From: Tubulanus polymorphus
Taxonomy: Eukaryota > Nemertea > Palaeonemertea > Tubulaniformes > Tubulanidae
Direction of reading: 5' to 3'
Assembly: GCF_964204645.1 (NCBI RefSeq)
Contig: NC_134029.1
Coordinates: forward strand, 23,206,450-23,270,449
DNA: 64,000 bases
In this document: piece by piece, positions 13,125 through 59,007 of the stretch
Numbering within the stretch: the first letter of the stretch is position 1
Layout of the letters: the number at the start of each line of letters is the position of its first letter
Notes under the pieces: model-generated
The model's database searches: none
What the model was told of the DNA's origin: nothing
What the model saw: the letters and a program-made list of their open reading frames with translations, nothing else
Position numbers and translations under genes: made by a program

Positions 13125-13822
13125 ACTTGTGAACGAATACGCGCCGTTGAATGTTACACAATTCCCTTTTTTGAATAAAAAGAAAACACCGAACTGATCA
13201 GGATTAAGCAACTCCCATCGGCTTTAGTATCGGCAGCGATCCGTACCGAAAGTTAACTTAAAAATATCGATACGTTAAAATTTATTATTAGAAATCCGAA
13301 TTTTTGGTTTTCAATTAAGAAGGAAGCATTATCAAGGAATTTGGTTCTTTATATCATCACCTTTCTCCAGTCAGTAATATCGGATATTCTGATTTTAGTC
13401 CATGTTTCGTCTATATATTCGACAGTAGTTCTGGATCCAAGAAAGACTTATTCAACGATATTTTTTTCACTGTACCAAAGACGAGCAAGACCACAACCTC
13501 CGATAATGTCTGTTCTACCCGCTGCTTAATTTACTAATTCAAGCCTTTTTCAACAGTGTCGGGATCGACTGAGTTAATTGCTAGAAAGCAAACTCTATTT
13601 CGAGTCAAATGTTAACCGTCAGTGTAAAAATCTATCTTGAAAGATGTACGCCCCATGAGAACTGGGCGTTACGCTCACCTCCATGATGATAGTATATTTC
13701 CTCAAACAACAGTAAAAAGAGGTTTGCATAAACTGGCGGCCTATTTTTAAGACGTAAAAGTATATCTAATCTAAGTGCGTCGACCTGAATCATTAAAATG
13801 CTGGGTAAAAAGCAAGTTTCGA

Positions 13823-13967
13823 GATGAAGATAGAATCCCACAATGATAACGAAAAGTCCGACAATGTTACTTTGAGCTAGTGTAGTTTATTCAACGTTTC
13901 GACTATCCTAATAGTCATCTTCAGGAATAATGTCATTTCGTTATCATTGTGGGATTCTCTCTTCATC
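13823..13967. repeat. 32-bp inverted repeat element enclosing a hammerhead-like core
   Basis: The arm 13823-13854 (containing AATCCCACAATGATAACG) is mirrored at 13936-13967 with one mismatch in 32 bp. The 81-bp spacer contains the ribozyme-like motif annotated at 13896-13924. It is a strong cruciform or hairpin former, likely a small transposon remnant, and has no coding potential. Confidence 0.85.
13896..13924 (-). ncRNA. hammerhead-ribozyme-like core, locus 1
   Basis: On the minus strand: CTGAAGA, one extra T, a 6-bp stem GACTAT/ATAGTC closed by TAGG, then CGAAAC-type closure (GAAAC). This matches the CUGANGA / stem II / GAAA plan of hammerhead ribozymes. Helix I and a cleavable NUH site could not be placed, so activity is unproven. 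A second locus with a different but paired stem is at 30701-30731. Confidence 0.4.
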
Positions 13968-14126
13968 GCTTCAACACGGAGTAAGTGTTTTATCAATCGT
14001 GAAGTTTCGAGATGACAGTTTAAAGCCTCATTGTTCCATCAAAATTTAACTTATGAATTTTGTTGAAAGAGGTCGGGGTATAGGAGATCGTTGGCGGGAT
14101 TTGTCTCGAACTGTTGACGGATATTG

Positions 14127-14790
14127 TTATATAGTAATATTGATTGTGTGACGTAAGTGTGACGTAAGAGTCACGTGATTTTGTAGAGGGAGCGTTGACG
14201 CTACAGAGAAGCGTGTTTGAGATGGAAAAATATAGATATGTTCAATCGAAGTTAATCGTTTGTCCTCTAAGGGTTTAATCCACTCGATACTCGGTACCTG
14301 AAGCAAAAGAGAGAGGAGATCAATACAACAATATATATGGCCATTCACTCATTCACTTACCAAGTAAATTCACTGTCCATTGTGCACAGAGGAGGATTCT
14401 TATTCGATAAGCAAAAGAAGTACTGAAGTCAAGTGAATAATATTCGTTTTTGCACCTTTAGGTTTTTCTTAGGACGTTTGCATTTTTAACATACGTTTGT
14501 ATAACCATTGACTGGGTCAGGTGTAGAATAAATGCTCTTTTCTAACACACGATCAATTACAAAACCCGTTTTCATTATGAATTCACCTGTTGAAGAAAGT
14601 AACTGTCTTCATCGATAATAAAAAAGTGATCAAGCGTTCCGTCAGACGATACTAAAACCTTTGATAGAATTTTGTTTGAATATTCCAACACGAGCCCGAT
14701 TATTTTTGCGCTAGTTTCGCGTATAAAATTTGTTACACGAGTCAATGATCGATCAATCACGACCAGTTGTATACGAGTGAGTGAGGACAT
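14127..14790 (-). CDS. small two-exon protein of unknown function (124 aa)
   Basis: I do not recognise this protein. The model is exon 1 at 14790-14587 (ATG, 68 codons, ends CAG before a GTGAAT donor) and exon 2 at 14297-14127 (after a pyrimidine-rich TTTTGCTTCAG acceptor, 56 codons plus stop). Both junctions are phase 0. Residues include VVIDRSLTRVTNFIRETSA, SSDGTLDHFFIIDEDSYF and IEWIKPLEDKR. No signal peptide or membrane segment is evident. It starts 418 bp from the divergent gene at 15209, which suggests a shared promoter and supports a real gene. Additional exons, or chance ORFs with fortuitous splice sites, remain possible. Confidence 0.45.
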
Positions 14791-15208
14791 TTTTTTCAAG
14801 TTTTACAAATAGTCTTCTTATACAAGTTTACAGTTCATCTCCATACTAAGCACCACTCGAGGTTAGACCAAACCAAACCGATGATAAGTTCGCTGTAAGA
14901 TAAACAGCTTTGATGGATGAAAATCGCGCGTACACTCTCAACGTAAGTTTTCATCGAAAGTAAATAGAAGGAAGGTAGATTTCTTTTTAGACCAAAAAGC
15001 TTTGACAACATTTTTCTCGTGTTCTGGGATAAAGTATGTATATACATTATATACAGCAGCAAATTGCCTACACACATAGTCAACAACTAATTGATTTATC
15101 ATTTCTAATATATGGCCTCGTACACTATATATATTTTAGTTAAACTTTTTTCTCAAGTCTATTATCTATGATTAGTCTCCAGAATTGCGGCTTCCGTCGG
15201 TCAACAAC

Positions 15209-16491
15209 ATGGGAGGACAAGAACTGGTTTCAAGAAGAAAACGTAAGGGTTTTTCATTACTTTCTTTGATTGAGGAGAAATGACTTTAGATTTGTTCGAC
15301 CGTTTGTCCGACCATTGATTGGATTGAGTGATTTAACGAATGATTCAATTTTGGCTTTTAAAGAAATGATTATCATTGGGTACTATCACCGTAATTACAC
15401 ATTTATGTATGATATTCCAATTCAAAGCAATATCGTTTGTCAAAGAAGACTGAATCTTAATAAGTTGACTTTCAATTGTTAAAACAGAAACCAAACTAGT
15501 GAGGGATTGGTGGTACCATCGTGTTGAATCTACTAGCAGCAGCAAAAAGAACAAAAGCATCACTTCAAATAAACTGCCTCAAGTCTCCAAACCAAACATT
15601 CACATTCGCAAGTTGCGTCCTTCGTTACAATGGATGGAAGCCATTTACGAGTAAGTGTTTAACCCAAAATTCCGATATTACGCATATTCTCATCTCATAA
15701 ACAGTTTCGAGAGAATAGATTATCTTTTTTTTAACATTTTGGATCAGAATGTAGGATGTGTGGATGGAATATTGATATATAACGAATCTTGTTATACATC
15801 GACGGGGGTATTTTCTAGATGGGTGAATTCTATCGACCATTTGACAGTGCACATGTACAGATGTTTCAAATCTGATTTATTAACAATTTATAAATCAAGT
15901 CAAGCACTATGAGTCGATAAAACCTTCATGTGTTATTACTACTACTGTATGTTGATCTATATAGTGGTAATAGACTCGGAATCAACTGAAATTGACGCAT
16001 CGAGGCAAATTCTTAGAAGTTACAGCATTCGTATAATATATCAGCGCAGTAGGGCGAAAGAAATAGCACCGAGGTTGACCCTCGCTTCAGACGTTTAGGC
16101 GTGGCAGCGTTTTCCCTAAGAAAGCATTTTCTTTACTTCCGGGCCCTCCACGTCCAATTTTCCTGGATCCGCCCTGATCCCCAGATTAAAATGAAATATT
16201 TCTATTGGTTTGATCTCGTTTTGTATATGACTCTCGCAGATTTTAGCGTCAATTTTCAGGCATGAAATCGAACCACGTCCGCAATACGGAAATGAAATAC
16301 AAGTGGCTACCCCGGTTATAGATGGTATTACCTGGAAACAGAGCCACGCTCATCAAACCACTGAAAACACTATGTTTATCAAAGCTAGTCGAACTGCACC
16401 GAATCGACATCATTTCATCAGTCCTGAATGGGTTTCAGAAAATGTCCTACGGAGCAGACTCGGTCGCGGCTTAGTCTATGGTTGGATATGA
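15209..16491 (+). CDS. small three-exon protein of unknown function (142 aa)
   Basis: Exons are 15209-15242 (ATG after AACAAC), 15488-15650 and 16260-16491 (TGA). The GT-AG introns have phases 1 and 2 and join exactly to a 142-residue ORF. The protein is basic and soluble, with no membrane segment. Notable parts are KLVRDWWYHR near residue 14, KLRPSLQWMEAIYE at about 55, NRHHFISPEWVSEN at about 115 and a C-terminal GLVYGWI. Short basic proteins with a WY motif near the start and a terminal YGW recall some sperm and cilium microtubule inner proteins (SPMIP1-like), but that is a weak impression, not an assignment. It is divergent from the gene at 14790. No canonical AATAAA was found close to the stop. 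Confidence 0.6.
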
Positions 16492-17143
16492 AGTGAATTA
16501 TTTGATTTTTTTCAATAATATTTGAACATATAAAACGAGTACACGCATTCTTAGATCAAGTGTCTCAGAGGTTCCACGAAAAGGATTAATACATTTTCAT
16601 TAACGTCTCGCGAGGGTTCGAATCTTTTTTGCCAAGTAGAAAACCGTCAATTATACAGTCCATGTCCAGGCGAGTGTTACCGAGTCCAGATATTCGTCAT
16701 CAATGATTCATTCAGTTATTTGTAGAGAGCCTTCTTTTTAAACCCCCACACGATTGTACGGAATTTTCTAAGAAATGAAATCCTCAGTGTGACATGCGCA
16801 AAATTCCTCGCCGAGAAAAAAATAACAAGCGTTGAATATTCGAATTTTTAATAACCAAAATACCTTTTTAATCTTTATTCATCGTTTTCATATACAGACA
16901 AATCAAAAATACGTGCTTTATAAAATCAAATAGAGATATATTAATACGTAGGTATAATGAAATATGATCAGGATCGATCTTTTTAAGGCAGTTTACTCTC
17001 GACCAAGTCGGCAAAATACTTGGTTAAAAAACATCCCGTTTTCTCGTGGACAGAATTCTTACTACAATCCTCAGACTCAACATTTCTAACCAGTGACTAA
17101 AGGTAAGACAGAATATCATTTGAGCCTTTACTATATTGCGGAC

Positions 17144-17178
<35 letters not shown>
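17144..17178. repeat. (AAT)n microsatellite
   Basis: About eleven uninterrupted AAT triplets. Confidence 0.95.
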
Positions 17179-17179
<1 letters not shown>

Positions 17180-17643
17180 GATATGAAAGTTATTTCAAAT
17201 TTTTAAAAGCCAACGTTTTTTCAACGGGTTTTTCATCAGATTACAACCGTCTGAATAAACAATTCGCGTCGACGACATCTATGAGTACGGGGGCGCCTAT
17301 TAGAAAATACACCACGTGGATGAAGAATTCATAGCACACACCGGTTTTCTTAGAACAACACCAAGTTTCAGCATTCCTCTCTTTCTCTCGCGTGAAGTTT
17401 TTAAATACTCATTCATTCATCAGAAGCGGAAGCAACACACGCTACTGAATAAATATTAGATTATAAAGTCGTTTGGAAAAACCATAACTGGCATCGTTGG
17501 ATTCAGTTTAATAGTTTTAAATCACTGACAATGCATCAACCGTAGAACTGAGACTAGGATGTTGAGAATACTATTTTCATTTGATTGTCTTATATCTGAT
17601 TAAATCGGCTCTATAACCGATACTTACGTATTCTAAGCCAATG

Positions 17644-17731
17644 TCATCTTCACCCGTCAAGGATTCAAACTCACTAAGCTAAAGCCGTTCGAGTTCGGGG
17701 GAGCGATACCGGACCCCTGGCAAGCGAGGAC
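17644..17731. mobile_element. family D MITE, internally deleted fragment
   Basis: Both ends are recognisable: the TCATCTTCACCCGTCAAGG start and the CCGGACCCCTGGCAAGCGAG end seen in full copies at 53599-53915 and 63013-63331. Most of the interior is missing. Confidence 0.65.
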
Positions 17732-20195
17732 GAGCAATTGTATTCGTGGCCATTGTATTTAATAAAATTCAACCAGTGATCGCCTTAGAAAAATAATTTC
17801 AAAAGAATATACTTAGACTAGACATGAAGGAAGATAACATTTAACGGCAAGAAATGATTTAGAAAACGAAGAGCGTTTTACGAGAATCTATGAATGAGAT
17901 ATTCTAGACTAAATAACTATAATGAAATATCCTGCATTGAACAGGTAATGAATAAACTGATGTAGGTATCAATTTGCAGCCCTAAATCGCCCCTCAGATC
18001 TTCACCAGTCCACAATCACCTCTTCAGACATTTACCAGTATTAGTGTTATATCTTGACCAGCAACAATCACGAAGTTATCGAAGTTATGACGATGAAATG
18101 CTTAACGTTAGGTTTTTGTAGTTATACAAGTCCTTAACACACATTGTCTGGACAATTATAAGAATGGTGATACAGTATTGAATGTGTGATGAGGGCAGAC
18201 AGGGCTCAGGTAGCAGATTCATACCTACAGTACTTAACTAATGACTCACGGTCCATTACATTCGATGAAAATCAATTATTGATATCAATATAGAATTGTT
18301 TCATAGCTTTATCACCTCGTTATCGCCTTATGCTATAAAACTAATCTAAGCTATTACAGCCATCATGTGTATATCAGTACCCATTTTGATATCAATCTAC
18401 ATTAAATTTACACATAAAAACACTCATGCATCTGTTTAATTCAGTAATTCGATATTGTACTGTAATATACACTCGCGTGTACTAATTTCACCCTACACAA
18501 ACGGACCCACCATAAATCAAATGCTTCCATATGACCAAATATACGCCAGTTTCAGTATCAAATGCTTTAGGAAGGGCCCTAAAAATTTATGGGATATTTG
18601 TTGAAATATATTTACTGATCCTAAATACATAGAATAAACCGTTCGACTCGGATATCACTACCAAAAAAAGATGTCACTTGAACACAGTTTGAACCCAACT
18701 TAAATTGTTGCGCATTTCCTATAGAAAGTTGCGCCAGTGTTTCACGCGGAAATCAAGTAGCCACATGTTTCGTATTAATTCAATCAATCGATCAACGATC
18801 GCAGCTTGTAACTAAACACATTAGTAATTCATAGAAAATCATGATACATCTCGTTAATGATCGATTAAATGTAACGATATCATCATATAGGCTAGAACAC
18901 ACTGTACACGGAAGTACAATAGCTTCAAATGCTCGTTAATACTGAATAGGGGCGTAATACATAATGTACTTAGGAAAACTTTGACTGGCTTTTAACCTTA
19001 TCTCCTCAATGAACGCAGTTTACATTTGAAGCAGTGGCCGATAATGGTTACGTACACACACTATGAATGGCCCCTCTATAGGGACAGGTATCGACGTGAA
19101 TTATCCAACGGTAGTTTCATCTCATGTAACACGAGCCGAAATAGGCTAAAATAACAATGAAATATTTCTCTGCGTTAATATGTACTACTTTTTTCAATCT
19201 ACCACAATCAACATCACGATTAACATCGCTAACTATTGATACATTACGGCAAGTCGGGTTCGCGTACATTTCATATTAACTTAATCGAATAGAAAACTGT
19301 CTGAAAAAACTGTCACAACAACCGCGCAGGCACTGTAGATATCTGGCAAATATTATAGCACCAATTATGAGAAACAGCAGTTACTCTGGCAAGTGAGGAT
19401 TTGACCGATCCTTTTAAACTATTAAAAGTGCATAGTTCAAGTTACTTTTCCTTCATTTGACCAAACGACGAAATGTCAAGTACTCGTCAAGTACACATTT
19501 CGGATATGAGCTAGATTCAGGTTTCAATTCGTATTACTAAGTACATTATACTTCCGTCCTCGATCATATTTATCAGTTTCTAATATTTGAGATCAACGAT
19601 TAAATATTTCACACATTCAGAGATTATCAAACATAAAACGTACTGATATTGAGCGGTATCTGAGAGTAGCGCGGATAAACGGACAATACGTCAATATTTA
19701 CTTCAATATTTACTTCACTGTCGTTTCTGTAATAAAAGAAACGTTTCAAAACCGGGACTATGGAAAATGCAAGCAGAAAAGGTTTAAGGCAGTGTTGACA
19801 TGACAGGCCTATACATGAATACAAATATGCATCCATGACATTTGGACAAATATTGTCAAGATTTTCTTTCAGATAAACACACATCAAAGAGATTAACATC
19901 GACAATAAGATACCGGCGCTCACCAGATGGTTTAAACGGGAACATTCTCTCTCACGCGTCTCCCTGGTTTTATATCATTCTTAATCAAATTTCAACTGGA
20001 TTCTTTGGAATCCTAACATCATCGAATGAGATATTACCATCAATTTATTTTTCTACTCTGTATTTCATATCATTTTCACTGAAAATTGATTTACTCGTAC
20101 ACGTTCCGTTGGTTCCATGTGGCATTACAGAAATAGAGAATGCCCCGCTTTATCCCGATCACGTTTATGAATGATCTGATCTCTGCTGGATATCA

Positions 20196-20201
20196 TTTAT
20201 T
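20196..20201 (-). promoter_or_regulatory. CHSY1: candidate poly(A) signal of CHSY1
   Basis: AATAAA on the minus strand, 354 bp past the stop codon. An alternative is at 16874-16879. Confidence 0.4.
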
Positions 20202-20298
20202 GGTCACCTTGTAAAATATGATGTTCAATCCAGATTTCTGATTAACTGGACGACTATAATTGGTCCTAAATGATTTGGCTAAAATTGGGTATTTGTTA

Positions 20299-20463
20299 TA
20301 CAGTGGAACCTCGTTACAACGAACTTCAGGGGACCAGAAAATCAGTCCGCTATAACCGATAGTTCGTTATATCTAGTATAAAATCATTGAAATCGTCCTA
20401 TTTAGAGATCGAAATTCTAAGTTCGTATTAAATGCTGAATCATTATACCGAGGTTCCGCTGTA
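20299..20463. mobile_element. pogo/Tigger-like MITE
   Basis: Ends TACAGTGGAACCTCG (from 20299) and CGAGGTTCCGCTGTA (to 20463) are inverted repeats of the CAGTGGAACCTCGTTA type typical of pogo/Tigger elements, with TA at the boundary. 165 bp, non-coding, just 3' of the CHSY1 stop on its transcript. Confidence 0.75.
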
Positions 20464-20554
20464 ATAGATATTGTAATACATCATGGTTCAATACTTTCTG
20501 AAAGACAGCGCAAAATCTTGTGATAATACGTAACGACACTAAAGACTACTCGTA

Positions 20555-23500
20555 TCATCTTTTGTCTTCTTCTTGATCGATCATTCTTATCAAATCTGCC
20601 ACTGACGCGAGACTGGCTGTTTTCGACCCGATACACATGTCGTGCTGACTTTTCGACAAGTTTTTATCACAGAAAACTGGATGGAAGATGTGAATCATGC
20701 CGGGGTCCGGCGCCCGGAATACTCGCAAACTACTCAACAATGTCCGGTCGAATATATCGACGTCTTCGAGTCCCCAACCTTTAATCGACGTGTTGAATCC
20801 GCCGACGAGCGTCAAATCGCTTTTATAAATACTCGCGATGCCGTAGCCGAATATTCTCCAGTAGCCGCGCCACGACGCGAAGTTAAACGGATCGTCGGAA
20901 CAATCGCGCGATTTACAAACGATTTCCGGATCGTACTGACTGAATACGATCGGGTAATAAACCTGTTTCGTTCGTATCGTGTGTTGACGAACTCGCGTCA
21001 ACGCGTCGCGCGATAAATAGATGTCGACGTCGACGAAAAATAACAGATCGGAATCGCGACGTTTCCTGGCGCCGGCTTCGAGCGCGATCGATCGCGAGAA
21101 CACTCCGTCCATTCGATGAACGACGATCTCCGCCGACGGATATTCCGACCTCGCGCGATCAACCAAATCGATTATCCGCGACGCTTCCGACGAGCCGTTG
21201 GTCGTCCGCTGAAACAGCATCACCGAAAGCGTCACCGGTTGGTCGCCTGGAGACGATAGGAACGTCGTCGCGAAATTGCGCAAGAAACGCGAGAACGTCT
21301 CCACGCGACCTTGAATCGGAAGTATCAAATGCACGGTAGCCGCTCTCGTGGAACTCGAGCAAACTTGAACGTGTTTTCGTTTCGATGCCGGGTTTCTTAA
21401 CTTTCCTTTTCGAATACGACTCGGTTTGTTGTTGTTCTCAGCGTTTTCGCGACCGCCGCGACGAGAAGCGTCGTATTCGTCGACTGCGCGGAATGAAATC
21501 TCCAGATCGGCGAACGTCTGATGTACGTACGTATGTCGACGTACGTCCAACTTCTTACGATTTCCGGTGAACTTTTTATACAGCAACAACAAATCGAATA
21601 TATAATCGACTCCGTGGACCGGGTCGACGCGGTGGTATCCGTATAGGATATCTTTATAATCGATCGTGCGTCCTTTCTGTTGAGAATTACCGTTGATCAA
21701 TTTCATCACCTGAATGATCACTTTATGTAACGCGTTATGAAATGATTTATCGACACCGCGACGCGGGTTTAAATCGGTCGCCGAATAGTAATGCCGGTGC
21801 AGGAAATTCCACGTCAGGACTTCGTCGGCGCTGCGAGGTTTGAATTTTCGTAATGAAATGGCTAGATTGGAATCGGTCTCGCCGACGGGACGCTCGTTTA
21901 AATACCACTGCATTCGATTGATATCTCGTCGCAGTAGCTTCAAGTCGTGTCGTCGATCAGTGTTTTCTAACGATAAGAAATGATTATACATGCGATAAAG
22001 ATGTCGGTGATCTTTCACCGGGTGCATCGTGATCGCTTTGTACATTTCGTGTAGTTTCCCGACGCGACCGAACGAACCCTGAGGATCCTCGTGATTCTGA
22101 TAGAATAATGACTGCATCTGAAAATAAAAATAAAGATATAAAACTGGTTATTTTCGTGTGAAAGAAAATGTTTCAATGGCCAGATGCTGAAAGGCTGTTC
22201 ATAGTGATCTAGTGAATTACTGCTGTGAAACTGCATAGTTTCTCTGGTATTTATCAGGACTCAGTTGCTCAAAAAGAGGGTCCGATCTAAGGAATGAAAG
22301 CCACTTGCCCGGGGGGGAGGGGGGGGGCAAGCATATCTGAAATTTTGCTTCCCCCTCCAAGAGCTACTTGTCCTACAGAGACAGTCTAATTGGTGGCACT
22401 ATGATTCCTTTTCTGAAAAATCTTCCATTTTAACGCGAAAACGAAATGCGTTAAGAAATCCGTTGTATCGAATGGGAAAAAAAGCTTTGTGACATAAAAT
22501 TGCACTAGCCCGGGGGACAAGTGATAATGATAACCTACTTGCCCTGATGAGAATATACTTGTCCCGGGCAATCAGACAAGTGCTTAGATCGGACCCTGCA
22601 AAAGTTGGTTAAAGTTGTTGGACAAATACCATCTTCATAGTCACTATTTCTAATATCCAATATTTTTCTAACTTTAACCAACTTTTGAGAGAATGTACCC
22701 AGGTCCTGGACACAGTTCTAAGATTTAATTCTGGTGGTGGTAAAACATCACAAAAAAATCATAGAAGGTCTTGAGGAGGCGGGCGGGTATGTCCTACCAG
22801 ATACAAAGTGTCAACGATGGATAAGACAAATCTGAGAAGTGATAAGTAGTGTTAATAATTGGCCATATTTTCTAACCGACCATGAGCAGAAATTTAAGAA
22901 TGGGCCAAGGCCAGGTAAAAGTTGAAATGTTGCCTAGTAGAAGCATTTTGACACAAATTCGAGTTGAAAAGGGCAGTTTAGCACAGTTTGCAGCTGATAT
23001 CTACATTTACTGTGGGAACAGCTGAATCAGTTTATATAAACAGAATAGCCAGGTCAGGTAAAGTCTGCAGTGTTACCCGTTTTCCCTGTTATACTAAACT
23101 AAAACTACTACTAAAACGAATACAAGGTTTGAGAGCACTGAACAACACTCAACCCCAGCAGCATTATCAATCAGCTGAAACAGTTAGAATAAATACATTC
23201 TGACTCTATAAACAAAACCTACTCAAAGTAACTACTTGTACATATAAGGGTGAATAAAAAGTTCTAAATTCCCAAGAAAAGGAAAAGAAAGGATTCTGTA
23301 GAATCCGGGGGGGGGGGGGGGGGCTTAGCAAGCCCCTCAAAACTTCCAAGTGTCTTTAAAGGTACTTTTTTCAAAGAGGACATAATTTTTTTTTTTTTTT
23401 TTAAAGTAATTTCCGTAAACAAAGGCGCAATTTTGTCAGAAATTCTTCGAAACTGCCAGAGTACTTTTTTCTTGATAATTAGCCCTAATATTACTATCAG

Positions 23501-24374
23501 ATCCATGCCCGGACACCCGCAAATTTCCGTAACTCACCTCAAACGCCCACGGACACTGAACCCCGGCAAACTTGCGAACGCATCTCCCGATTTCCACATC
23601 TTCGTGTTTCGTGTACAAATGTTTCAAACAATAGTTAATATGAGGAACGATTCGTTTGAGGGTCTCGCGACTGAAAACGATCGCCGTGCCGCCCATACAA
23701 TAATTCTCATCGTAACGCAACACGAGATTCTTCCCGCCGACGCCTTTACCGGCCTGTCCGATATACAACGGCTTCGAACTATTCAACGACCGTAAAAACG
23801 TCGCCAGTCGTTTACCGTGAATAAAAACGTCGTCGTCGCTGCGTACGAACCATTCGAATCGATCGATGTAATTATCGTGCAAATATTTCAACATCAAAAA
23901 TGATTTTTTCTGCGGCGGGTACGTGTCGTCGACCCCTCGTAGATTAATCACCGGGGGTAGACCGGACGTCGCTGACCCGTTACCCGTATCGGCGCTCGAA
24001 AAAAACTTCACCTCGCCGTCGATTGTTTTCGCCCACGTGTTCTGAACGGCGACCGCGCGAGTTCCCAGGTATTTATTCGCGGTCATCACGCCGACTAAAA
24101 TAAATTTCTCATCGTTTTTTTTTCTCGCCGCCGCCGTCAACGTGGTTTCCGCGGAGTCGGTAGTTGTCCTAATTACCGATGACGATGATGATGACACGCG
24201 TGGATCGAATTTATCTTTTTTATAAACGCACCGCGGTGGATATTTGCCGGCGTTGTGGTATCTTTTTACAAGGAAATAACCGATGAAAATACCGACTAGC
24301 AACAAAACAATCGACCTGTATCTCGACCAGCTGTACCTCGACCATTTACGCAAATTGTGTCCTATTTTTCTCAT
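20555..24374 (-). CDS. CHSY1: Chondroitin sulfate synthase 1 (bifunctional glycosyltransferase)
   Basis: Two exons: 24374-23538 (279 codons, donor GAG|GTGAGT) and 22117-20555 (520 codons, acceptor TTTTCAG), joined in phase 0. The 799 residues compare with about 802 in vertebrate CHSY1. It polymerises chondroitin by adding GlcA and GalNAc alternately in the Golgi lumen. Residues 21-36 form the type II membrane anchor (SIVLLLVGIFIGYFLV). The N-terminal beta-3 transferase domain carries the metal-binding DDD at 180-182 (VRSDDDVF). The C-terminal CHGN/beta-4 GalNAc-transferase domain carries DVD at about 642-644 and the GWGLEDVD motif. The exon junction (PWAFE|MQSLFYQN) matches the family at the same place. 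CHPF-type pseudo-enzymes are less likely because both acidic motifs are intact. The second exon has more CG-rich third positions than its surroundings. Confidence 0.96.
22278..22596. mobile_element. MITE with GGGTCCGATCTAAG terminal inverted repeats
   Basis: Perfect 14-bp inverted repeats at 22278-22291 and 22583-22596 bound a 319-bp non-coding element inside the CHSY1 intron. It contains G/C homopolymer tracts and repeated CTTGTC/GACAAG words. Confidence 0.8.
22599..22687. repeat. foldback: perfect 18-bp inverted repeat
   Basis: CAAAAGTTGGTTAAAGTT (22599-22616) is exactly mirrored by AACTTTAACCAACTTTTG (22670-22687), with a 53-bp loop, directly beside the MITE in the CHSY1 intron. Confidence 0.9.
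23307..23323. repeat. poly-G run (17 G)
   Basis: Homopolymer in the CHSY1 intron, with a 17-18 nt T run about 70 bp further on. Both lengths may be unreliable. Confidence 0.95.
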
Positions 24375-26974
24375 ATTCCGTGTTTTTATTCAGAGCACTA
24401 AAACAGCTCTCTCTCAACCACTCACTGTATCTATTACAACGCTAACTCTTCGTGCAGTTCATAAATTTTCAGACTTTTTTTGTTCTTCTTCATTTGAACG
24501 ATGAATGAATCATTGAGCGAACAATTTCATTACTCCGACTAACACCGCTGTCTCCCATTTAACGAGAATCCACAAATTTTTCTGATGAAATTCTTTAACA
24601 TGTGAAACTGAAATAAGTGAATTTTTCAGTTTTTCTTTTGCACAATAATTTCTCGGGTCACATTCAGTCGTCGAAGCTTCAACAACGTTAACAGTCAACA
24701 ATATCTGCAGCTTAAAGTCACGCACACTCACACAGTTCTGCGAGCTGATTATCCATTCATGATTGTCGTCAGTCAAAGATTAACTCCAAATACTATCCTA
24801 CAATCGCCCGATCCATCGGCCTTTCTCTTCAGCGAAACCATCAGGCTTAATCATCAGGTTGAAAAGGCCAGCCTATACTAACTCTTCACTTTCTTCGACT
24901 TCGCAGGTTTCCTCAGTTTGAATGTTCACTTAGATGTCATTGCGGTTTAACACAGACGCGCGCGCGCCGCTCGCCACGTATTTCAAACAGTTCTGTCACT
25001 TCTCACGCTTCATTAACCGCGACACATGGAGTCCATGTGAACTTTAAAACTTCTCTATTCTTCACTTCACTTCCGCGTTCATTGACTACAGGAAGTGACG
25101 TAACGAGACAGACTGGGGCTCCAGAGAAAATACAATACGGGTAAAAATGGTTTGGGTTGACTCCGGATTGGTCCGCCGCTGAACACACGAGAGATACTGA
25201 AGATATTCTGATCACGGCCCGGATTTCACCCAGTCCTGTAGTGTGGCTAACTCCACAATGATCTCCGTCGCTCTACAATCCTAGTGTACATCAGACAGTC
25301 ACACTAAGGTTCTTGGTGAAGGCCGGGATGTGAGAATGATATTCTGATCATCGGGATAATTCCCGGCTCACATCGGAAGTCACTTAATCCCGCACAGAGA
25401 ATGAAAAATCGGAACTGCTCAGATCTAATCCTCACTAGTCCTCATGACTTTGAGACATAATTTACATTTTGAAGTATTCCTGAAAATGACCATTATTATT
25501 GAAATTATAAATACACACAGTAATTATTTCCGGCGGGGTTGTAATGTCAGCTCTCGGGTGAGCGCAGGCCAGTACGCATGCAACTTCGATCAGGTCCACG
25601 GTCGGTAATACGGTTATATAAGCTTACTGAGGACACTGCAAGCAGGGCCCAGGGACCCGTAGTTGAAGTTTGGGGGATGAATAGGCAGTAAAATGAAATC
25701 TTTTTATACAGAGTTGCTAGGATATCGGATGACGTTAAGCTATCCCCAAACTGGTTGAACGTAGGGCACGTCTACCGGTCGCAAAAATCACGTGCCCTTT
25801 TTTATTGTTTTCATCCTCAAAGTAGAAAAGGGTACGAGAGGAGAAAATTACAAACAAAACGGCGCATTCAGTTGTCCCAATCCTGGAACACAAAAAAAAC
25901 AACAAAAATGGCCTATCGTCGTCTCTATTCATCCCAAAAGTAGAAAAGGGCACCTACAAGTCATGCCAGGCTCTTTCAGTTGTCCATCAATTCGGAAAAA
26001 AGTGCAGGTAAGTCAATTTTCTAGAAAGCACTTTGCACCAGTGACTTCATTTTCATTGGTTGGAAATTGCACCAAAAAGCGGTAAATTATCATAAATTTT
26101 GGTGGTAGGGCCTGACCGTTTGTGGATTAAACCATAGAACTATTATTCCGTTATAGTTCTATGATTAAACCCGTAGTTCCGCTACCCTCCCAGGGCTAGC
26201 GGTCCCTGGAGTTCACCCCGGCGTGACTCATCTCTAAAACAGCGGCGCCGCAGCGCAATTAAGTTGTCGAGACTCATCTAACTTAGTCTTCATGTCTCAC
26301 GTTTAGTTCTTTTAGTTTTTTCTTGCGGATTTGCTATGAGAAAAACGCCATAAGTCGGTGAAAAATTATCCCGCAAAGAAGACTAAAAAAGATGTTTCTA
26401 ATAGTATGTCCCCATGGCAGAGAGAGAAAAGACGATCGATAAAGTTAAAAGTTATTTTTCCAAAAATATCCGACAAAATATGTAAAATATGAACCCAGCA
26501 GGCATTTATTACTGATATGATATGATTTCAATGGTTAAAATCGATATGGAATAAATAAATATGTTATATTTAATTTCATCTCGGTTGATCTCGGTTCATC
26601 TCGGTAAAATACATCATATCGGTAATAAGGATGACCGTCGAGTAAACTGCGGCACGCGAGAGTTTCTTCGTCTTCTCTATTTCCGCTTATCGCGTGTCGC
26701 AGTTACCCCATAAACATGGCGGACGGCCTGACAATGTTTTAGATCAAATTTTCCCGAGCTTTTTCAGCGGAATACTCGATCGTACGTGGATAATGTGCAT
26801 AAACAATCCTGTAATCTGTTAAAGAGATAATCGAAGAATGTATTGATCAATATATTTGACGACCAGTTTCGTTAATTCGTAAGGAATTCCGTGAAAACAT
26901 AGCTTTCTCGACCGGGCCATTTTGGACTGGTTGTCGGTGTATATCTCCCTGTACTGAGAAACGACGATCTCGTC
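24375..26974. other. divergent intergenic region between CHSY1 and RPRD2
   Basis: 2.6 kb between the two start codons, transcribed outward on both sides, so it holds both promoters and 5' UTRs. It contains a CG-rich patch (GCGCGCGCGCCG near 24958), a diverged tandem duplication (25810-25985) ending near a CAG|GTAAGT donor-like site at 26005-26013, a 10-bp stem ATAGAACTAT/ATAGTTCTAT at about 26133-26162, and three short ATCTCGGTT repeats near 26578. No supported coding region; an untranslated first exon is possible. Confidence 0.5.
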
Positions 26975-29900
26975 ATGTCGTCGAAATCAAAACCCCTGGA
27001 AGACGGTGTCGTGCTGAAGAAGTTTCAGTCAATAGCCCCGACCCAGGAAGGTATTCAAACTCTATCGAAGTGGATGATTCATTATAAAGCTCACGCCAGT
27101 AAACTGGTCGTACTCTGGATGAATGTGATGAAAAACGGTAATTATGACCAATGGGGTACCCGCGAAACCAGCTATCCCACCAGATGGCGCAACAAGCAGT
27201 AGGTCGTTCGTTGTCAAAATTAGTTCATTTTCAATGACATTTGAACTGGATTTTTGAACTCCTCAATCCATATACTATCACAGCACCTACCAGTATACAA
27301 TACTTTCATTCTTCTAATCGGATGTTGGTAAAGTTTCCAAAAATGATTCATTCATTTAAGAGAAAAGTTAATTTAGGTTTAATTGAAATGTAGACGAAAT
27401 CGAACGTGGACGACCAACTATCTACTAGCGACACCTGGCGGATCCTCGCCTGCCATACGTGGAATCCTCGATTGCCACAGTAGCACTGCGGGTACCCCAT
27501 TACGCGACTTTTCTGAAATTCTTTTTCATTTTCTTGATAATCTGGCTATAGTCGGATAAAGATCGAAAACAAGAAGTGATCGTTTTGCTGAAATGGTATA
27601 ATTCCTGAATCTAGTCGCTTTCTGATCTGCTGATCGACAACTGAGGTGTTGAAAATCGAAGAAAGCATCGAAGAGAAATTAATGGATTTGAAACCATTGC
27701 CTACTTACTATGGTCTAGTGCAGTATTCTACCACTAGATCGTTACTTCTGCCCCTAAACCTAACCCCTACTCGTAATTTGCAAAATATCCACTCCTTAAA
27801 GGGCACGGATGTGAAGCTGGAGGGGTTAGGTGACATTTTGATCGATCATCTGACTCCGGCCAATGATTCCTTCTTTTAGATATCTAATCGATATTTTGTA
27901 AAATATATTTTCAGCTAAACCTGCGCAGCGTTTGACGCTGTTTTATTTGTGTAACGACGTCGTTCAGAATTGTAAACGAAAAAACGCCGTCATTTTTCAA
28001 ACGCTTTTTAAAACCGTATTGAAAGACGCCGTTTTATTGGTCAGGTATGTCGCATTCTTACCTAGGTTACAACTTGATTCCTTTGAAAACTCCTCTGAAT
28101 TGAAGAATTAATTAATTTACGAGGACCTTAAATCTCCTAAATTGCACCAAACTCCTTGAATTTTCTGATTGCTATGCACTATCTTGTGATATCATGTCCG
28201 GTACATTTACCGCTGTAAACCTTTTTCATTTTTAATATTTTTCCTTTTGAATGAATACTCCTCTAATGAACCCAATTGCTTCGTTGTCTTTAAGTTAAAC
28301 GTTGAAATGATTGAATTTCTTAACCCTTTCAGTGCTGGCTAATTAATACCCTATAGTGCTGAAGATAATTTGAAAATTCTGAAAAATTCCACCCTAGTGT
28401 GTTTAATAACAGGAATACCACTATAGTGCGTCTACACCGCGGTGCAATGTATCGTTAGTTACTAATATTTCACTATGTTTGACAGGTGCTGCCATCTTTC
28501 AAGAGAGATAATTAGTAATTACTAATTTAATCAATACGACGCAGTGCGGTGTACTAGCAAAATCCATCACTGATTCTTACACCGCACTGCGGATTATGAA
28601 AGGGTTAAACAGTATTTTTATTTTCGTTGCAGAGATGAAAGTATACGTAAAAATATCGAACGGATATTAAAAATCTGGACGGAACGAAATGTTTATCACA
28701 CAGATTTTATCGATCAGCTACAGTCAACTTTAAGTAAGTTTGTTTCGTTCATTGAAGATTTGATTCAGTTGATCCGGTTCTCCGGAGCTCGACCCTCTCG
28801 GGTTGAGGTTGCCTCGATCGTTTATCAAAATCTCTTCATTTCTTTTCAAAATTCAACTGATTCGGATCCGGTTTCTGGGTCAAGTTTCACAAACGTGATT
28901 CACTCTTGATTCATGAAGAAATTGAATTGAAATGAGATTTTTTTAAAAGAATTTTAAACTGGTCCAAAAGCCATATTTAACGGAGAAGTCTAGTTCCACA
29001 CTTACTGTTACTCTTGAGTGAAAATGAGTAAATTAAGAATATGTGACTTAAGTCCAGAACTGTGGAACTGGGTCCTACATATTATATCTTTATTAGAGTC
29101 AACTTTCAACTGATCCGTAAAATTGTTGTCTTTTGACCTGTTTTTAGTGCAAGACATTCCAACAGAACCAGAACCAGAACCAATACCTGATATCGAACCC
29201 GATTATCCCGAGGAAATACCATTAGTTGAACCAGAAGCTGCGCCTCCCCCGAAGAAAAAGAAAACTATCGATCCTAAACTTTTACAAGATTTTCAGGTAA
29301 TTGTTTTGAGTCCGGTGCAGATATTACAAAAAATAATGGCACACAAAATCAGGTGTATAACAGGTAGGGGCCGTTAAGTGTGTATTTGAAATTCAGCTGA
29401 TATTCAACCAAACCTCCATGTACACAATTAACATACATTTTTAGTCACTCGCTTTAATTACTAACAAGTATCTGTGGCACACTGACGTTCATTGTGATTT
29501 AAAAAAATCATCTTTTCTTCGACTGCAGCCGAAAGAAATGGCTGAAAAGATGGTGAATTTCATCGCTACAATTAAAGAGGCCGAAATGAAAGAATTGAAT
29601 GCATCTCGATTACGTTTTGACATCAACACAGTTGAAGAAGTTAAAAGATTGAAAGGTATGAATGAATTCACCTCAATGCAGGGTTCTGACGGATCTGGGA
29701 TTTGTTTTTCCCGGCGCAGAAATCATGGAAAACTGACGTTGCATTTTTGACGGTGTCTTGTTCTTGTTGGACTGCAATTGACTTAAACCCACGGGCTAAT
29801 GTAATTGAAAGAGTTAGCCCGGGTTAAAGTTATTTTCAGTCAATAAAACTGGCCCCAGGGATTTTTTGGTCAAGGGTCAGGGAAAATATGGTAATTTATG

Positions 29901-32900
29901 ATTCCCTGATCTGTAAGAAACTTTTTGATGATAATCTAAGCTTTCTGCGTAGATCAGATTGAATGTTCGATGAATACGATATTTCAGATCGAAGTCACGG
30001 ATATGATTTCGCTCGTCAGTTCGAAGAGTCGTGTAATAAACTGGAGGATTACGTGAAATATTTAGAGAAGGTCGCCGGTGATCGGGAATCGTTGTTACTA
30101 ATGCTCGATACTAGTGAGATGTACTACGACGCTCAATACGGAGAAGCTAAAGTTGTCGCAAATGTAAGTTCAGTGGTTAGATTCTAAGATAAGTGAATTT
30201 GTCATCTAGATGTAGCGGTAAAGAAATGGAATACTCAGTAGTAAACCTTCATTTCAACTCTGACACTCATTAGCGCTCAGGGGCCAGTTGCACAGTCATG
30301 ACTTAAGACCAAAAGTGGTCTTCAATCTTAAGACTGGTCTTAAGTTGTTAGATTGGCTATAGAACTAAGTTGGTCTTAGACTGGTCTTAAGTCTAAGCCA
30401 TGACTATGCAACCGACCCCAGGAATTTCGCTGTTTATTTCTTACCAGAAAATTCAAGGGAAAAGCCACATTTGGGCTTGAGTGCTAATAGGTTAATAAAC
30501 TTAGTTATTTCATCATCATCTACAATACAACAGATTATCTGTAATGTTGATTCTATGCTGTATTGTACTAGTTCAATTTGACTCGATATTAAATGTTGTT
30601 ATTAAGATAAAAACCCACTTTAAATCTACAAATTAAAAGCATTTAAAAACAAGAAATTTATTTAATATTCGAACAATCTAAAATATATGAAATACACGAT
30701 GTTTCGATCTCACACTAGAGATCATCGTCAGGTGTGAGATATAGACTAAAAACAGGGGTACATATACAGGTTAATTGAGTAAATTGGTGAGTGAGACAAA
30801 ATCCTCTTTTGATTAAATATAGTTTGTTTGTGTTGTAGGCGTATAGAAATTTCGGTTCGCGGATCAATAGACAACGGAAGCATTTAGACGAAACGCGACG
30901 TAAACTGCCAGAACCGAAACCTCAGTCGGTTTATACTGATTCTAGTAATACTGATGTCATCGATATGGAATTAGACGAACAGCAGGATAGCATGTATAAA
31001 CGTAAGTACGACTAGAATTTCGTGAACTCGTTTTGACTAATTTCTTTTTGCAAACGTTAATATTCAATCGTCATTATTTTCGAACTGGTTTCTGCATCGG
31101 CCAAGAATTCACCGTGATGTGGATCGCCGAAGTCCACTAAAAAGGTTAATTGAAAATATAGAAATATTTCTGATGAGCTATCACCCTTCATCGTCAGTGG
31201 AGGCAATATATTTCGGTATTTTTGATGAACCCTTTAGCTAATTTTGGGACTTTCCATCACGGCTATTGCGATTTAAAGTTATATAACATGTATTAGGCAC
31301 TTAGTTATCTAACCCTAGTCAAATTCTAACTGAAAACACAAGTATAACTGGCTTCAATCCAACAAATGATTTAAAAACCTTTTTTGATTGTGCTGATTTT
31401 CAATCTCCTATCAATCTGCAGTCTGTACCCACCCCCTTCAGAATCAGACTTTTGCCATCCTTCTTACAAAAACTGATGGTCTTCACAAGATCTCCTGTCT
31501 CGATCATTGGCATCTCTATTCGAGAATAAATGACAGTTTATCCCGGGCCCCTCGCAGACATTTCGTCGCAGTACATTGAAAATTAGATCATTCAGACTTA
31601 ACGCTTCAAAACGCTATTGTCTGATGGGTGCGGGTAGGGACAACAGATTCATTCAGGGATTAGATTGATGTGAAAAATGCATGTCTGCTGGAAAACAAAA
31701 ATATGAAAAATTCGATACCACATCTGATATTTTCATGTTCCTGTTTTTGTTGTGAAAAAATGTGGAGAAAAGCCAATAGTGCGAGGATGAAATAGAATTC
31801 AGTGATCACTGATATGTTTATCTCGTGGTATTGAATAGAATTACGCTGTGTGTGTTGGACTATAGCGTGTATATTGTTGTGGTTTTCAGCTGTTTACGGA
31901 CCGGGGTCCAACACGTCCACAACCGATTCGCTTCACTGTCGTCCTATATCCAGTGTTCCGACTATTGCGGCCGAAGGTACTGCCATTTTGTATCCTTGCA
32001 ATTCGAATATCGTTTTCGATTGCAAGGGCGGATCCGGAAACGTTTTATTAAAAACAGGGTCGTACGGACTAGCGATCGGAATAGATTATCATACAGTAAA
32101 CCATGCGTCGTCGGTGGGATGAAGGCTCGCGGGAAAATGTTTCATCCTGTTTTATATTTCTCTTTTTCAAGTCAAATTAAACACTGAACAAATAGATCAA
32201 TGATTTTATTTTGAGAGGTTGCTTTAGTAGTCAGACTACAGAAGCAACCTCTCATGAATGATGAGTCGATACAAGGAACAAACGTCGAGCTCTGTTTCTA
32301 TTGTTAGACGTAGTTTTCATTCAAAATCTTGATAATTTTTCTCAAGTCTAGGAAAAAACCTTCCTGTCAGAAAACATTCGACCTACGCGTGGTTTACTGT
32401 ACCCTCTTTTTAATACGAACGTACCGTAAATAGAAAAGAAAAAACTAATACACTTTACTAAAAAAACAGTTTTTCTATTCAAGCTGCGATGAGTTTTAAA
32501 CAGCGTTCGATTGTGGATCCGCCCTTCGTGATTGATCAACCAGTCTGTTGTGTCGAGTGAAATTTCAGGGCTCTCATTGGCGAACGAAAATCGAATTATC
32601 TTTCATCCCCAAAAATTATTTATATTCATCATTATTATTTTGATTGCAGGCGAAAGCAAAGTAGTTACCACGGCTTTGAACACGTTATATAAACTAATAT
32701 TCTGCGCACTCGACGTATCGAAACAGTCACCATCCCTTTTGATTTTTTCGATGTATTCATTTGAAACCGTTCAGAAATTTTGAGCCCTGAAACAAACGTC
32801 GTTTAGTCGTAAACCTAGAATATGATAGACTTATATTTTTAAGATTTTTAGTTCACGAATTGTGTTATAATTTCTTTTCGAATTATTACGTATTGCGTTT

Positions 32901-48760: not shown

Positions 48761-49786
48761 ATGGAAGTACTAGTAGCGAAAATTGCCGCTTTGGCGTTAA
48801 TGTGGTTTGTGACACTGACTTTCGGAACAGTACCAATTTTAGTTGATATCTTTGTCCGCCGTTATGGCACTGATAAACACAAGAGGTACGTGACTGCCGT
48901 GCTGGGACTGCTAACATTCGTAGCTGGTGGGGTTTTCTTGGGCACGATCACATTGGACTTAATACCAGATGTAGTGGAGGAGTTCGTAGAGGCGAAGGTC
49001 AAAACTGAATTCCCGCTTGCGTATCTAGTTGTAGCGATTGGACTGCTGATGTTTCTAGTTCTGGAGCATTTCATTTTGTTTTGCTTGGACCGATCAGTAG
49101 TAGGCGCTGACTCTAAGTCACGACATGTGGTTGCAGTCTTGGAAGCTCACGACGGCATACACGACGAATCCGAATGTGGCCTTCTACACCACAGCCACGA
49201 CGAGCATTCGTACGGTAGCTTCTCGCCTAAAACCGACGAACACGAAGTACCTAACGAACACGATCACAATCAAGATGCCGAAAAGTCAGCAGAAATGAAA
49301 AAACAGGAAGTAGATTTTACGCTGGCTTTACGTTCGTACGCGATAGTCGTTGCGTTGTCGCTGCACTCGGTTTTTGACGGAATGGTTGTCGGATTTCAGA
49401 AAACAGATGTCAGCGTCTGGGAGCTCTTCTTCACGCTTCTGTTCCACAAAATCCTCGTCGCATTCAGTCTTGGTTCTAAGCTCCACAAACTGAAACACAT
49501 ACTCAGTCTCAAGCATATCGTGGGTATGGTCATTCTATTTTCGACGATGTCACCATTAGGTGGGATCATATCGACGGCGCTCTCCGAAACGGTCACCGAA
49601 TCACACCTGACCGAAGCGATTCTTGTCGGATTTGCAACCGGCAGCTTTTTGTACGTGACATTTTTTGAAATGTTGAAATTCGATGGAACGAAATTGGGCA
49701 ACATAATAAACTGTTTAATGGTGATCATCGGATTCGGCATCATAGCGCTCGAACAGTACATTACAAAATCAGTAATAGGGAAATAA
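48761..49786 (+). CDS. SLC39A1: ZIP-family zinc/divalent metal transporter (SLC39A1/2/3 group)
   Basis: One uninterrupted 341-residue ORF. ZIP proteins move zinc and related metals into the cytosol across plasma or vesicle membranes. Eight hydrophobic segments are visible: about 5-28, 44-66, 84-108, 187-211, 219-238, 250-271, 284-304 and 313-333. Between segments 3 and 4 is a His/Asp/Glu-rich cytosolic loop (LLHHSHDEHS, NEHDHNQD at about 141-171), a usual metal-sensing loop. Segment 4 has LHSVFDGMVVGFQ (H202, D206) and segment 5 LFHKILVAFSLG (H229), matching the transport-site signature of ZIP1/2/3, except that Asp replaces the usual Glu. SPLG follows in segment 6. The lack of introns suggests either an intronless family member or a retrocopy; it is open and looks functional. 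The exact paralogue is uncertain. Confidence 0.9.
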   Translation: MEVLVAKIAALALMWFVTLTFGTVPILVDIFVRRYGTDKHKRYVTAVLGLLTFVAGGVFLGTITLDLIPDVVEEFVEAKVKTEFPLAYLVVAIGLLMFLVLEHFILFCLDRSVVGADSKSRHVVAVLEAHDGIHDESECGLLHHSHDEHSYGSFSPKTDEHEVPNEHDHNQDAEKSAEMKKQEVDFTLALRSYAIVVALSLHSVFDGMVVGFQKTDVSVWELFFTLLFHKILVAFSLGSKLHKLKHILSLKHIVGMVILFSTMSPLGGIISTALSETVTESHLTEAILVGFATGSFLYVTFFEMLKFDGTKLGNIINCLMVIIGFGIIALEQYITKSVIGK

Positions 49787-55068: not shown

Positions 55069-55623
55069 TCAATTTATACACCATTTTAAAGGAAATGAAA
55101 TGCAGATATTTGCTGGCGATTCTTGGAATTTTTGAAAGCAACAATTGAGAACAGTGACGATGTGAAACCAAGGACCGCATATGAGTAATATATTCATTAA
55201 TATAACGATAATCGGTGACGCATTTACTAAACTTTCAGCTTGCAAATCATCAATACCTGGAGCTTTTCCAGTTTTAATTGACTTTATTGCACGATCCACG
55301 TCGTGGGGCGAAATCACGAGGTGGTCATCTAAACTAGAAGAGAGCAATTCCTCTACATCTGATCTATTTCTATCATTAGTAACGGAGTTAAACAATTTCT
55401 GATAATGATCTCTCCATAATTCGGTTATTTCCTTATCACCAGTAGCGTGATCGATAGACGTTGATACAGGTGCGCACTTATTATTGAAACATTTAACTTT
55501 GTTCCAGAATTGACACGGGTCCTTGGCGTATAGGCTATTTGCTAAAGAATCGGATTTAAAAGTTTCCTCCTGTTTCCTACATTTTCGCAACGCCAGCTTG
55601 AAACGCGATCTCAGTAAGCGCAT
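55069..55623 (-). pseudogene. non-LTR retrotransposon ORF2 fragment (between endonuclease and RT)
   Basis: 184 residues with the linker typical of CR1/Jockey-like ORF2 proteins: KDPCQFWNKVKCFNNK, ELWRDHYQKLFNSV, DVDRAIKSIKTGKAPGIDDL. The frame then diverges from the expected RT core. No endonuclease or YADD motif is present in this piece. Confidence 0.85.
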
Positions 55624-56991: not shown

Positions 56992-57771
56992 TTAACAGTT
57001 GTCTTTAACACTTGCAGTTTGATAAAATGGTGACCTTATTCCACTTATTTCTGGTTTATCTTCCTTGTTGGAAGATTCTTCAATAGAAAATATTTCCTTA
57101 CCCGTATTACTATACTGTGGTAGGAAATAACCTAATGTGGTTCCTTTACGTATAATTACATCCTCGTCATTTACATTCATTAATCGAACCGGTATATAAA
57201 GTTCATTAACAGTTCCTAATGTTTGACCACATAATATTTTATATTTTGCTGGTAAATTATAATCAGAATTTACTATCCCTTGAGTGCCATTTGATATAGG
57301 TGCTTGAACACTACCCATAATAAAAATTTCAGAATTTGCTGGTATTTTCTCACTTTGTCTTGCTGCAATTTTACTACTTCCGTCTAAACTAACTTGACCA
57401 ACAAGTGGTGCTACCACTCCTATTTTTGTTAAAGTCAATAATCTATTCTCAAAATCAATAAATGCTTTATATTTTTCTAGATAATCGCTTCCCAAAATAA
57501 CATCATGAATAAGATTATCAACTCTGTAAAAATCATGAGTGGTTGTATCGTCGTATATATCCAAATTAATCGAGGTCAATCCTAATAATTTGAAATTACT
57601 TCCCTGTACTGAAATTGCTCTTTCAAAACTTCCCTTTTTAAATGCGGGCTTTTCATTTAAACTATTGTATACTTTCAAGCTCAAAACCGAAATTCCAGCA
57701 CCCGTATCAATAAGGCATTCAACTGATTGGCCATTAATTTTAGCGTTTATTGTCATCGCTAACGATGTCAT
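56992..57771 (-). pseudogene. Ty3/Gypsy-type aspartic protease region
   Basis: 259 residues beginning with a retropepsin: VECLIDTGAGISVLS carries the catalytic DTG, and DVILGSDYLEKY matches the flap/ILG region. The remainder resembles the protease-to-RT linker. The ORF ends at 56992 before any RT, RNase H or integrase. It follows the gag/zinc-knuckle fragment in the same orientation, so both belong to one truncated element. No LTR or primer-binding site is visible. Confidence 0.85.
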
Positions 57772-58015
57772 AAATGGACGTGGGGGTAATTTAGTTGCAT
57801 TGATGTTTACACGATTGTTTGACTCTTTTGAATTAAATGTTGTTTTGCTCGAAATAATGGGTGAACTTCGCTTGCAGAGGTAACCGGTTTTTTGACAAAT
57901 GTGATTAGATTTTTTAGAATTACTTTTTGTAATTATATTTTTATCAGAGTTCGTGTATTCATCATTTTTTCTAAGCTAATTGTCGGGATTGTATTCACTC
58001 TGTTAGACCTAGAGT

Positions 58016-58976
58016 CTACCCCTTGAACCCAGGCCTGTTTTGGTTTTCCGAGTTCGAATTTGACCTGTCATTTTGACGTGGATTATTTCTATTATACTGG
58101 TAATTATTGTTAGGATTCTGATAGCACGTGCGCTCATGGTGCCCAGTTTTACCACAACGCTGACAAATGATTCGGCCTTGATAGTTTCTTTGGTCTCTTG
58201 TAGGCAAATTTTTATGCATTCTTTCAGTTTGAATTTTGAGACGCAATAATTCTCTCTGAAAACTATCCATCTGTTTGGTTAAGAGTTTTGTTATTTCCTT
58301 CATTTCCGAAACAACTTGCGAAACAGTGTTTAATTTAGAATCAGAAGGTGAAGATATTCCCGCAATCGGAACTGTGTTTTGAAGTGAATTGACAGATTCA
58401 TAAAGGCGTGAAAAACATGGTTGATGGACCATTAGCGATAACGAACATCTTCATGCCATTTTGCATACCCGAAATAAATGGCATTAATCGTTCACTTGAA
58501 GTTTTTCCCAAGGATGAGCAAATGGCATGAATGTCTGTTATGTAATCATCTAAACTTTCTCCAATACGATGATGGAGTGCACTTAATTTTTGTTCTTTTA
58601 ACCATCTCGTCTGTTTAGAATCAAATTTTTCCAAAAAATCAGTTTTCAAATCTGCCAAATTCTTCCATTTTGGTGCATTTCTGATTAAGACAACCTCACC
58701 GTCTTCATTCCCATATTCTGCTTCCCCTAAATAATTATTCCAATACCACTCGGATGCTAGGCCCTTCACATACAAAGGGAATGCTTTCAATTTTTTTTCC
58801 TCAGCCCAATTTGCAAAAAGTGCATATTGCTCGAATTTTGTAAACCAAGTTCTAGCATCTTCGTGTGTTCTACCCGCAAAAGTACATGGTTTAAAACAAG
58901 CCGACTCTTTGTTTTCTAATTTATTTCTAACCATATGAATCTGGTTTATTAACTCTTCTTGAGATATTTTTGCCAT
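58016..58976 (-). pseudogene. Ty3/Gypsy-type gag with zinc knuckle, frameshifted
   Basis: From an ATG at 58976, one frame runs to 58398 (capsid-like: WFTKFEQYALFANW, KAFPLYVKGLASEWYW, LDDYITDIHAICSSLG). The second frame, 58432-58016, holds the zinc knuckle CQRCGKTGHHERTC (CX2CX4HX4C) in a basic, Asn-rich tail. The two frames overlap near 58400-58432, consistent with a small indel. Stops separate it from the protease ORF. Structural protein remnant of a retrotransposon. Confidence 0.85.
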
Positions 58977-59007
58977 TTTCAATGTATTTCCTAACAATTC
59001 CAATGTT

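Follow-up and report, generated by a model that had tools for sequence, protein, structure and literature searches.

The window, a 64-kb stretch of Tubulanus polymorphus DNA, carries two short motifs on its minus strand, which by direct reading are CTGAAGA-T-GACTAT-TAGG-ATAGTC-GAAAC (13924..13896, locus 1) and CTGACGA-T-GATCTC-TAGTGT-GAGATC-GAAAC (30731..30701, locus 2). The sequences and coordinates given for both in a first-pass annotation are exact. Around them, the window holds ORFs for a chondroitin N-acetylgalactosaminyltransferase/synthase (CHGN and Fringe domains; 20555-22117 and 23436-24374, both minus strand), apparently exons of one gene, and for a ZIP zinc transporter (48761-49786, plus strand). 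Fragments of an LTR-type retrotransposon occupy 56992-59117 on the minus strand, where an ORF with a CCHC zinc-knuckle-like stretch lies between a gag-like ORF (Retrotrans_gag) and one for a retroviral-type aspartyl protease; two further ORFs (55069-55623, minus; 59920-60393, plus) resemble pieces of LINE-type retrotransposon polyproteins by eye and have no Pfam match.

Mobile-element insertions at the two loci

The two motifs belong to different families of Penelope-like element (PLE). At locus 1, the family A insertion has its arms arranged head to head, with a direct pLTR arm that includes the hammerhead motif (13932..13827), an inverted pLTR tail arm from 13941 upward, and a one-sided tail; blastn with the family A pLTR of locus L075 gives 87.8% identity over 13932..13820 (minus) and 87.1% over 13941-14002 (plus). 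The 13-mer CATCTCGAAACTT that flanks this insertion as a target-site duplication occurs only twice in the window. Locus 2 is a 3′ remnant of a family B element and comprises the end of the ORF region, a promoter-like stretch, the hammerhead and the pLTR tail; it matches locus L016, in which the GIY-YIG end of a PLE ORF makes up the reading frame. A target duplication was looked for at locus 2 and not found, and locus 1 has no promoter upstream of the ribozyme. We infer that both window copies are dead insertion products. Beside locus 2, a dispersed repeat (window 30300-30422) is ~81-95% identical to stretches of loci L005, L029 and L040 and is apparently unrelated to the pLTR. The features of both loci and the members of each family are collected in Table 1.

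Table 1. Features of the two window loci and membership of the four motif families
Feature	Position	Strand	Detail or basis
Locus 1 target-site duplication, copy 2	13814..13826	.	CATCTCGAAACTT, 13-mer
Locus 1 family A insertion	13827..14001	-	175 bp; blastn against family A pLTR of L075
Locus 1 hammerhead	13887..13930	-	direct reading; model R1 64.5 bits, E 7e-17; MFE fold
Locus 1 helix I	13930..13925 / 13892..13887	-	5′ strand UUAUUC / 3′ strand GAAUAA
Locus 1 core	13924..13918; 13917; 13900..13896	-	CUGAAGA; extra U; GAAAC
Locus 1 helix II	13916..13911 / 13906..13901	-	GACUAU / loop UAGG / AUAGUC
Locus 1 triplet	13895..13893	-	GUU; cleavage would be expected after 13893
Locus 1 target-site duplication, copy 1	14002..14014	.	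CATCTCGAAACTT, 13-mer
Locus 2 family B PLE 3′ remnant	30600..30795	-	blastn to family B pLTR, 77.8% over 30795..30600
Locus 2 hammerhead	30694..30735	-	direct reading; R1 56.5 bits, E 2e-14; MFE fold
Locus 2 helix I	30735..30732 / 30697..30694	-	ACAC / GUGU
Locus 2 core	30731..30725; 30724; 30705..30701	-	CUGACGA; extra U; GAAAC
Locus 2 helix II	30723..30718 / 30711..30706	-	GAUCUC / loop UAGUGU / GAGAUC
Locus 2 triplet	30700..30698	-	AUC; GUC usual in family B
TATA-like box	30759..30766	-	TATATGTA; distance 35 nt to C3 downstream, 31 nt to the initiator-like A (30735, within TCA)
Family A			loci L075, L076; 833-aa ORF
Family B			loci L077, L078, L080, L081, L083
Family C			loci L009, L010, L079
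Family D			locus L011

Ribozyme architecture and covariation

Representative copies share a common plan that runs from the helix I 5′ strand through CUGANGA, one extra base, helix II and GAAAC to an NUH triplet and the helix I 3′ strand. Helix II has ~6-8 bp and a short AG-containing loop, and the triplet, GUU or GUC (AUC at locus 2), lies directly 3′ of GAAAC. The core CUGANGA ... GAAA is invariant between families with the exception of N7, and helices I and II stand in type I order. Both motifs are type I hammerhead-type ribozyme sequences of the minimal PLE variant, with cleavage activity predicted from sequence. As the triplet directly follows GAAAC, no nucleotides are left for a helix III within one copy, and the motifs are for that reason filed under the published minimal variant and not the canonical form; the helix III with a GUA triplet previously proposed for locus 2 is absent. 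An AACGUU palindrome (positions 15.1-16.1 = ACGU) could pair between two copies; two-strand folding gave no clear helix III dimer, a topology that the nearest-neighbor model handles poorly.

Among 13 representative sequences of several families, 86% of cells are paired (helix I, 76.9%; helix II, 93.6%), with two-sided changes in 10 of the 11 pairs; compensated cells number 40 against 12.1 in shuffles (0/500), and slid structures are only 27-41% paired. RNAalifold, unprompted, recovers both helices and extends helix II at its base by a U-G pair. The hammerhead core with a covarying stem II that the first-pass annotation had recognized is borne out by this invariance and these two-sided changes. 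It had also described helix I as not evident, yet this helix is present at both loci (TTATTC/GAATAA at locus 1, ACAC/GTGT at locus 2), covaries and forms in both MFE folds. The difference between the two window stems, taken earlier as covariation at unlinked sites, does keep the pairing but reflects two transposon families rather than independent host sites. The helix II loop AG (alignment A1, columns 32-33) is invariant in the 13 sequences; no partner was identified, and a tertiary contact is possible.

The native-strand MFE fold consists of helix I and helix II at both window loci; the centroid at locus 2 differs, and the fold z-scores of individual sequences, from -1.0 to -3.0, are modest. 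The monomer MFE structure of families B, C and D contains extra pairing of the core with the GUU/GUC strand, which would oppose cleavage of the monomer. A covariance model (R1) built from the representative sequences detects the two motifs as the sole notable matches in the window; both loci are part of its training alignment, so that its scores there are not independent. The Rfam hammerhead models, a search proposed earlier as the check on these motifs, returned no match at the gathering threshold or with the E limit relaxed to 10, the search listing unrelated low-score matches only. This outcome is expected from the absence of helix III, and it is still counted as a failed test. Rfam plant miRNA-precursor models match the long inverted repeat of locus 1, which we read as an effect of its head-to-head arms.

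Genome-wide copies and their Penelope-like carriers

Within the 64-kb window, the pattern CTGANGAN{10,28}CGAAAC matches twice, where shuffles average 0.19 matches and 1/100 reached 2. Across the 268-Mb genome, in which the window lies on contig C5, CTGANGATN6TAGN9GAAAC is found in 3,452 exact copies and its reversed pattern in 0; the looser CTGANGAN{10,28}CGAAACGT, which fixes the invariant core and leaves the stems and the extra base free, has 3,821 against 12 for its reversed-pattern control. Of the two outcomes that the first-pass annotation named as refuting its reading, the missing Rfam match is observed; the other, an absence of genome-wide copies that keep stem II pairing, is not, as thousands of copies keep it. 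Between A9 and G10.1 the extra base is T in 96% of copies, as only 134 remain with T excluded compared with 3,821 when the base is free, and many of these non-T exceptions resemble point changes within the same families (e.g., CTGAAGACGACTATT). Exactly one base is inserted in all 37 fetched copies with a helix II of at least 5 bp, some of them fetched by the T-requiring pattern and others by the free one. Divergent copies with an extra A, not U, before a different helix II occur at C6:5022101-5022134 (minus) and C1:5931927-5931960 (plus); an example of an extra-A copy is CTGACGA-A-GGGTGGAAGGATTCCACCC-GAAAC, and these possibly belong to further PLE families.

The plus-strand hammerhead of Chrysanthemum chlorotic mottle viroid (CChMVd) likewise has one extra base between A9 and G10.1 (PMC3705267), although this is an A in a viroid RNA and the PLE copies here carry U. 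Changing the viroid A to U raised trans-cleavage 3-4 fold, and C and G were detrimental (PMC3705267); in known hammerhead alignments, insertions that separate CUGAnGA from the stems do not exceed one or two nucleotides (PMC10085705). Given this precedent and this insertion range, the extra base is unusual but within known limits. The first-pass annotation was right to call it unusual; its presence in 96% of copies and the viroid precedent at the same position mean that it is not the sign of a look-alike.

The motif copies form four families (A-D; Table 1), each adjoining its own divergent PLE ORF; pairs of motifs led to the full elements. RVT_1 and GIY-YIG domains were found together on single ORFs, as in PLEs, of 713 and 817 aa (L011: RVT_1 4e-12, GIY-YIG 5.5e-6; L009: RVT_1 2e-9, GIY-YIG 5.1e-5), and within the PLE pLTRs (L009-L011, L075-L083) the hammerhead is type I and lacks helix III. 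The Penelope-like carrier suggested earlier therefore holds, in that every one of the motif families is linked to a separate element with reverse transcriptase and GIY-YIG. These elements have the structural marks of PLEs, namely direct and inverted pLTRs, partial tandems, 5′ truncation and short target-site duplications; a direct unit repeats every 2,856-2,857 bp in L075 and L076, around intact 833-aa ORFs, and L007 has a 14-bp target duplication, CTGTGCACTGGTTG, read by eye rather than computed. Neighbors under 5 kb apart are mostly head-to-head pairs (family A, 35/37; family B, 24/26; together 59/63), and the few head-to-tail pairs have PLE-scale spacing only, more than 1 kb. The genome contains several near-identical, uninterrupted PLE ORFs, which is consistent with recent activity.

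Elements of this kind are already known: these are PLE hammerheads, with thousands of copies seeded across the genome. The minimal type I hammerheads of PLEs (Cervera & de la Pena 2014; Lunse, Weinberg & Breaker 2017), as portrayed in PMC7761336 and PMC6155905, share the type I order, the core, the pLTR location, the absent or minimal helix III, the thousands of dispersed copies per genome and the expectation of action as dimers; compared with the 2014/2017 consensus as given in these later descriptions, the copies here differ in the extra U between A9 and G10.1, present in nearly all of them. Poseidon of Anolis carolinensis (PAc; PMC11167929) is likewise a PLE with reverse transcriptase, GIY-YIG and a pLTR hammerhead. 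Its ORF starts at stem II, whereas the long frames of families A and D open downstream of the ribozyme; a start codon at A9-U-G10.1, which PAc suggested, was rejected in families A and D, where an in-frame stop follows after five codons. Penelope of Adineta vaga (PMC3846280) similarly combines direct pLTRs with an inverted, head-to-head pLTR and a one-sided tail; it too has short target-site duplications (8-10 bp there, 13 and 14 bp in the two insertions inspected here), and in its pLTR an Inr-like TCA follows TATATATA at a distance of about 20 bp. Taken as a whole, the best explanation is that both window loci are remnants of PLEs whose pLTR carries a minimal type I hammerhead, to which we assign a probability of about 0.9.

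Insertion ends and the possible role of the hammerhead

To avoid selection on the core, 80 insertions were sampled by means of exact strings that lie past the ribozyme, at 75-84 nt downstream of C3; the sample consists of the family A and B members that carry these strings, and an insertion was informative (62 in total) when its 5′ break fell inside the stretch read. Breaks lie within 2 nt of the initiator A in 30 of the 62, and within 3 nt of the ribozyme cut site in 1. By family, 11/26 breaks fall near A-7 in family A (binomial p 3e-12) and 19/36 near A-4 in family B (p 6e-23), against about 0.6-0.8 per family under a simple uniform null that ignores any sequence preference of truncation; the initiator A was picked as the center of the test window after the cluster was seen, so that these p-values measure how large the cluster is and do not test a promoter blindly. 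The flanks differ in 29/30 clustered insertions, some flanks being the inverted arm of the same element. Copies selected on the core behave similarly, their 5′ homology mostly ending within 9 nt upstream of C3. The reference copies of families A-D each have a TCA with its A at -7 (families A, C and D) or -4 (family B), preceded at 29-31 nt by a TATA-like box.

The simplest reading is that the insertion 5′ ends represent the 5′ ends of RNAs from a TATA/initiator promoter, which would place the ribozyme in the first ~50 nt of the RNA. As the ends cluster at the start of helix I and not at the cut site, the templates would mostly have been uncut RNAs. Arrest of the reverse transcriptase at the folded ribozyme was considered and rejected; arrest is expected on its 3′ side, and the copies run through it and stop at its 5′ edge. 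The genomic pattern fits results for PAc in vitro, where cleavage-dead ribozyme mutants insert normally, RNA ends at the cut site were not observed, and cutting and extension take place on both DNA strands (Frangieh et al. 2024, PMC11167929).

Insertions derived from RNAs with the motif intact would also be expected of a conserved PLE hairpin in RNA or DNA, such as an element for reverse-transcriptase binding or a downstream promoter, that resembles a hammerhead and does not cut; the normal insertion of the PAc mutants, and the observation that PAc RNA alone did not cut (PMC11167929), are in keeping with such a hairpin. Against it, what stays constant between families is the hammerhead core, in which N7 alone varies, and helix I covaries although a plain hairpin has no need of it; moreover, PLE hammerhead cleavage is abolished by C3G or G8C and partly restored in the double mutant (PMC11167929). 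We consider a non-cutting hairpin improbable. The short copies could otherwise be metazoan retrozymes, non-autonomous tandem hammerhead repeats that spread as small circular RNAs, which their size (~150-350 bp), type I hammerhead, low GC and a PLE reverse transcriptase in the same genome would match (as in PMC7229834 and PMC7761336). However, retrozymes are head-to-tail tandems, and here close neighbors stand head to head and head-to-tail pairs occur only at PLE scale, with hammerhead tandems of 150-400 bp not found; a cut RNA would have its 5′ end at the cleavage site, but the insertions begin at the start site instead, and their tails match the PLE pLTRs themselves, all of which makes retrozymes very improbable. 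A chance look-alike or degenerate motif, which the first-pass annotation had allowed for and which the weakness of two window matches on their own and the missing Rfam match might suggest, is scarcely credible given thousands of copies against control counts of 0-12, the covariation and the carriers with intact ORFs.

For PLEs that carry a minimal hammerhead, we propose that a Pol II promoter in the pLTR would start the RNA at helix I, so that its 5′-terminal ~50 nt would be the ribozyme. Pairing through the AACGUU palindrome, between two copies or two RNAs, may complete helix III and permit cutting after GUU/GUC; templates for reverse transcription would be mostly uncut RNAs. Priming on both strands of a staggered target could then produce two cDNAs that meet close to the 5′ end of the RNA and so give rise to the head-to-head hairpins. 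In Adineta vaga the head-to-head form is explained by self-priming (PMC3846280), whereas both-strand target priming is proposed here and the ends would mark a probable RNA start. The breakpoint data argue only against a ribozyme that defines the 5′ ends of templates. Tentatively, the hammerhead may be a 5′-terminal domain of the transcript, which would start at the first base of helix I, that stays intact in most RNAs that become insertions and has a function other than the production of template ends; this could be the role of a dimer-dependent switch, which would bring two element RNAs together for target priming on both strands, or the removal of a capped leader from RNAs not destined for insertion.

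With many insertions per genome, template ends made by a ribozyme should be readable from sequence, as insertions should then begin at the cut site. The insertion starts at helix I in families A and B agree with the one PLE system studied in vitro, and point away from the 5′-processing role proposed for the HDV-like ribozymes of other retrotransposons.
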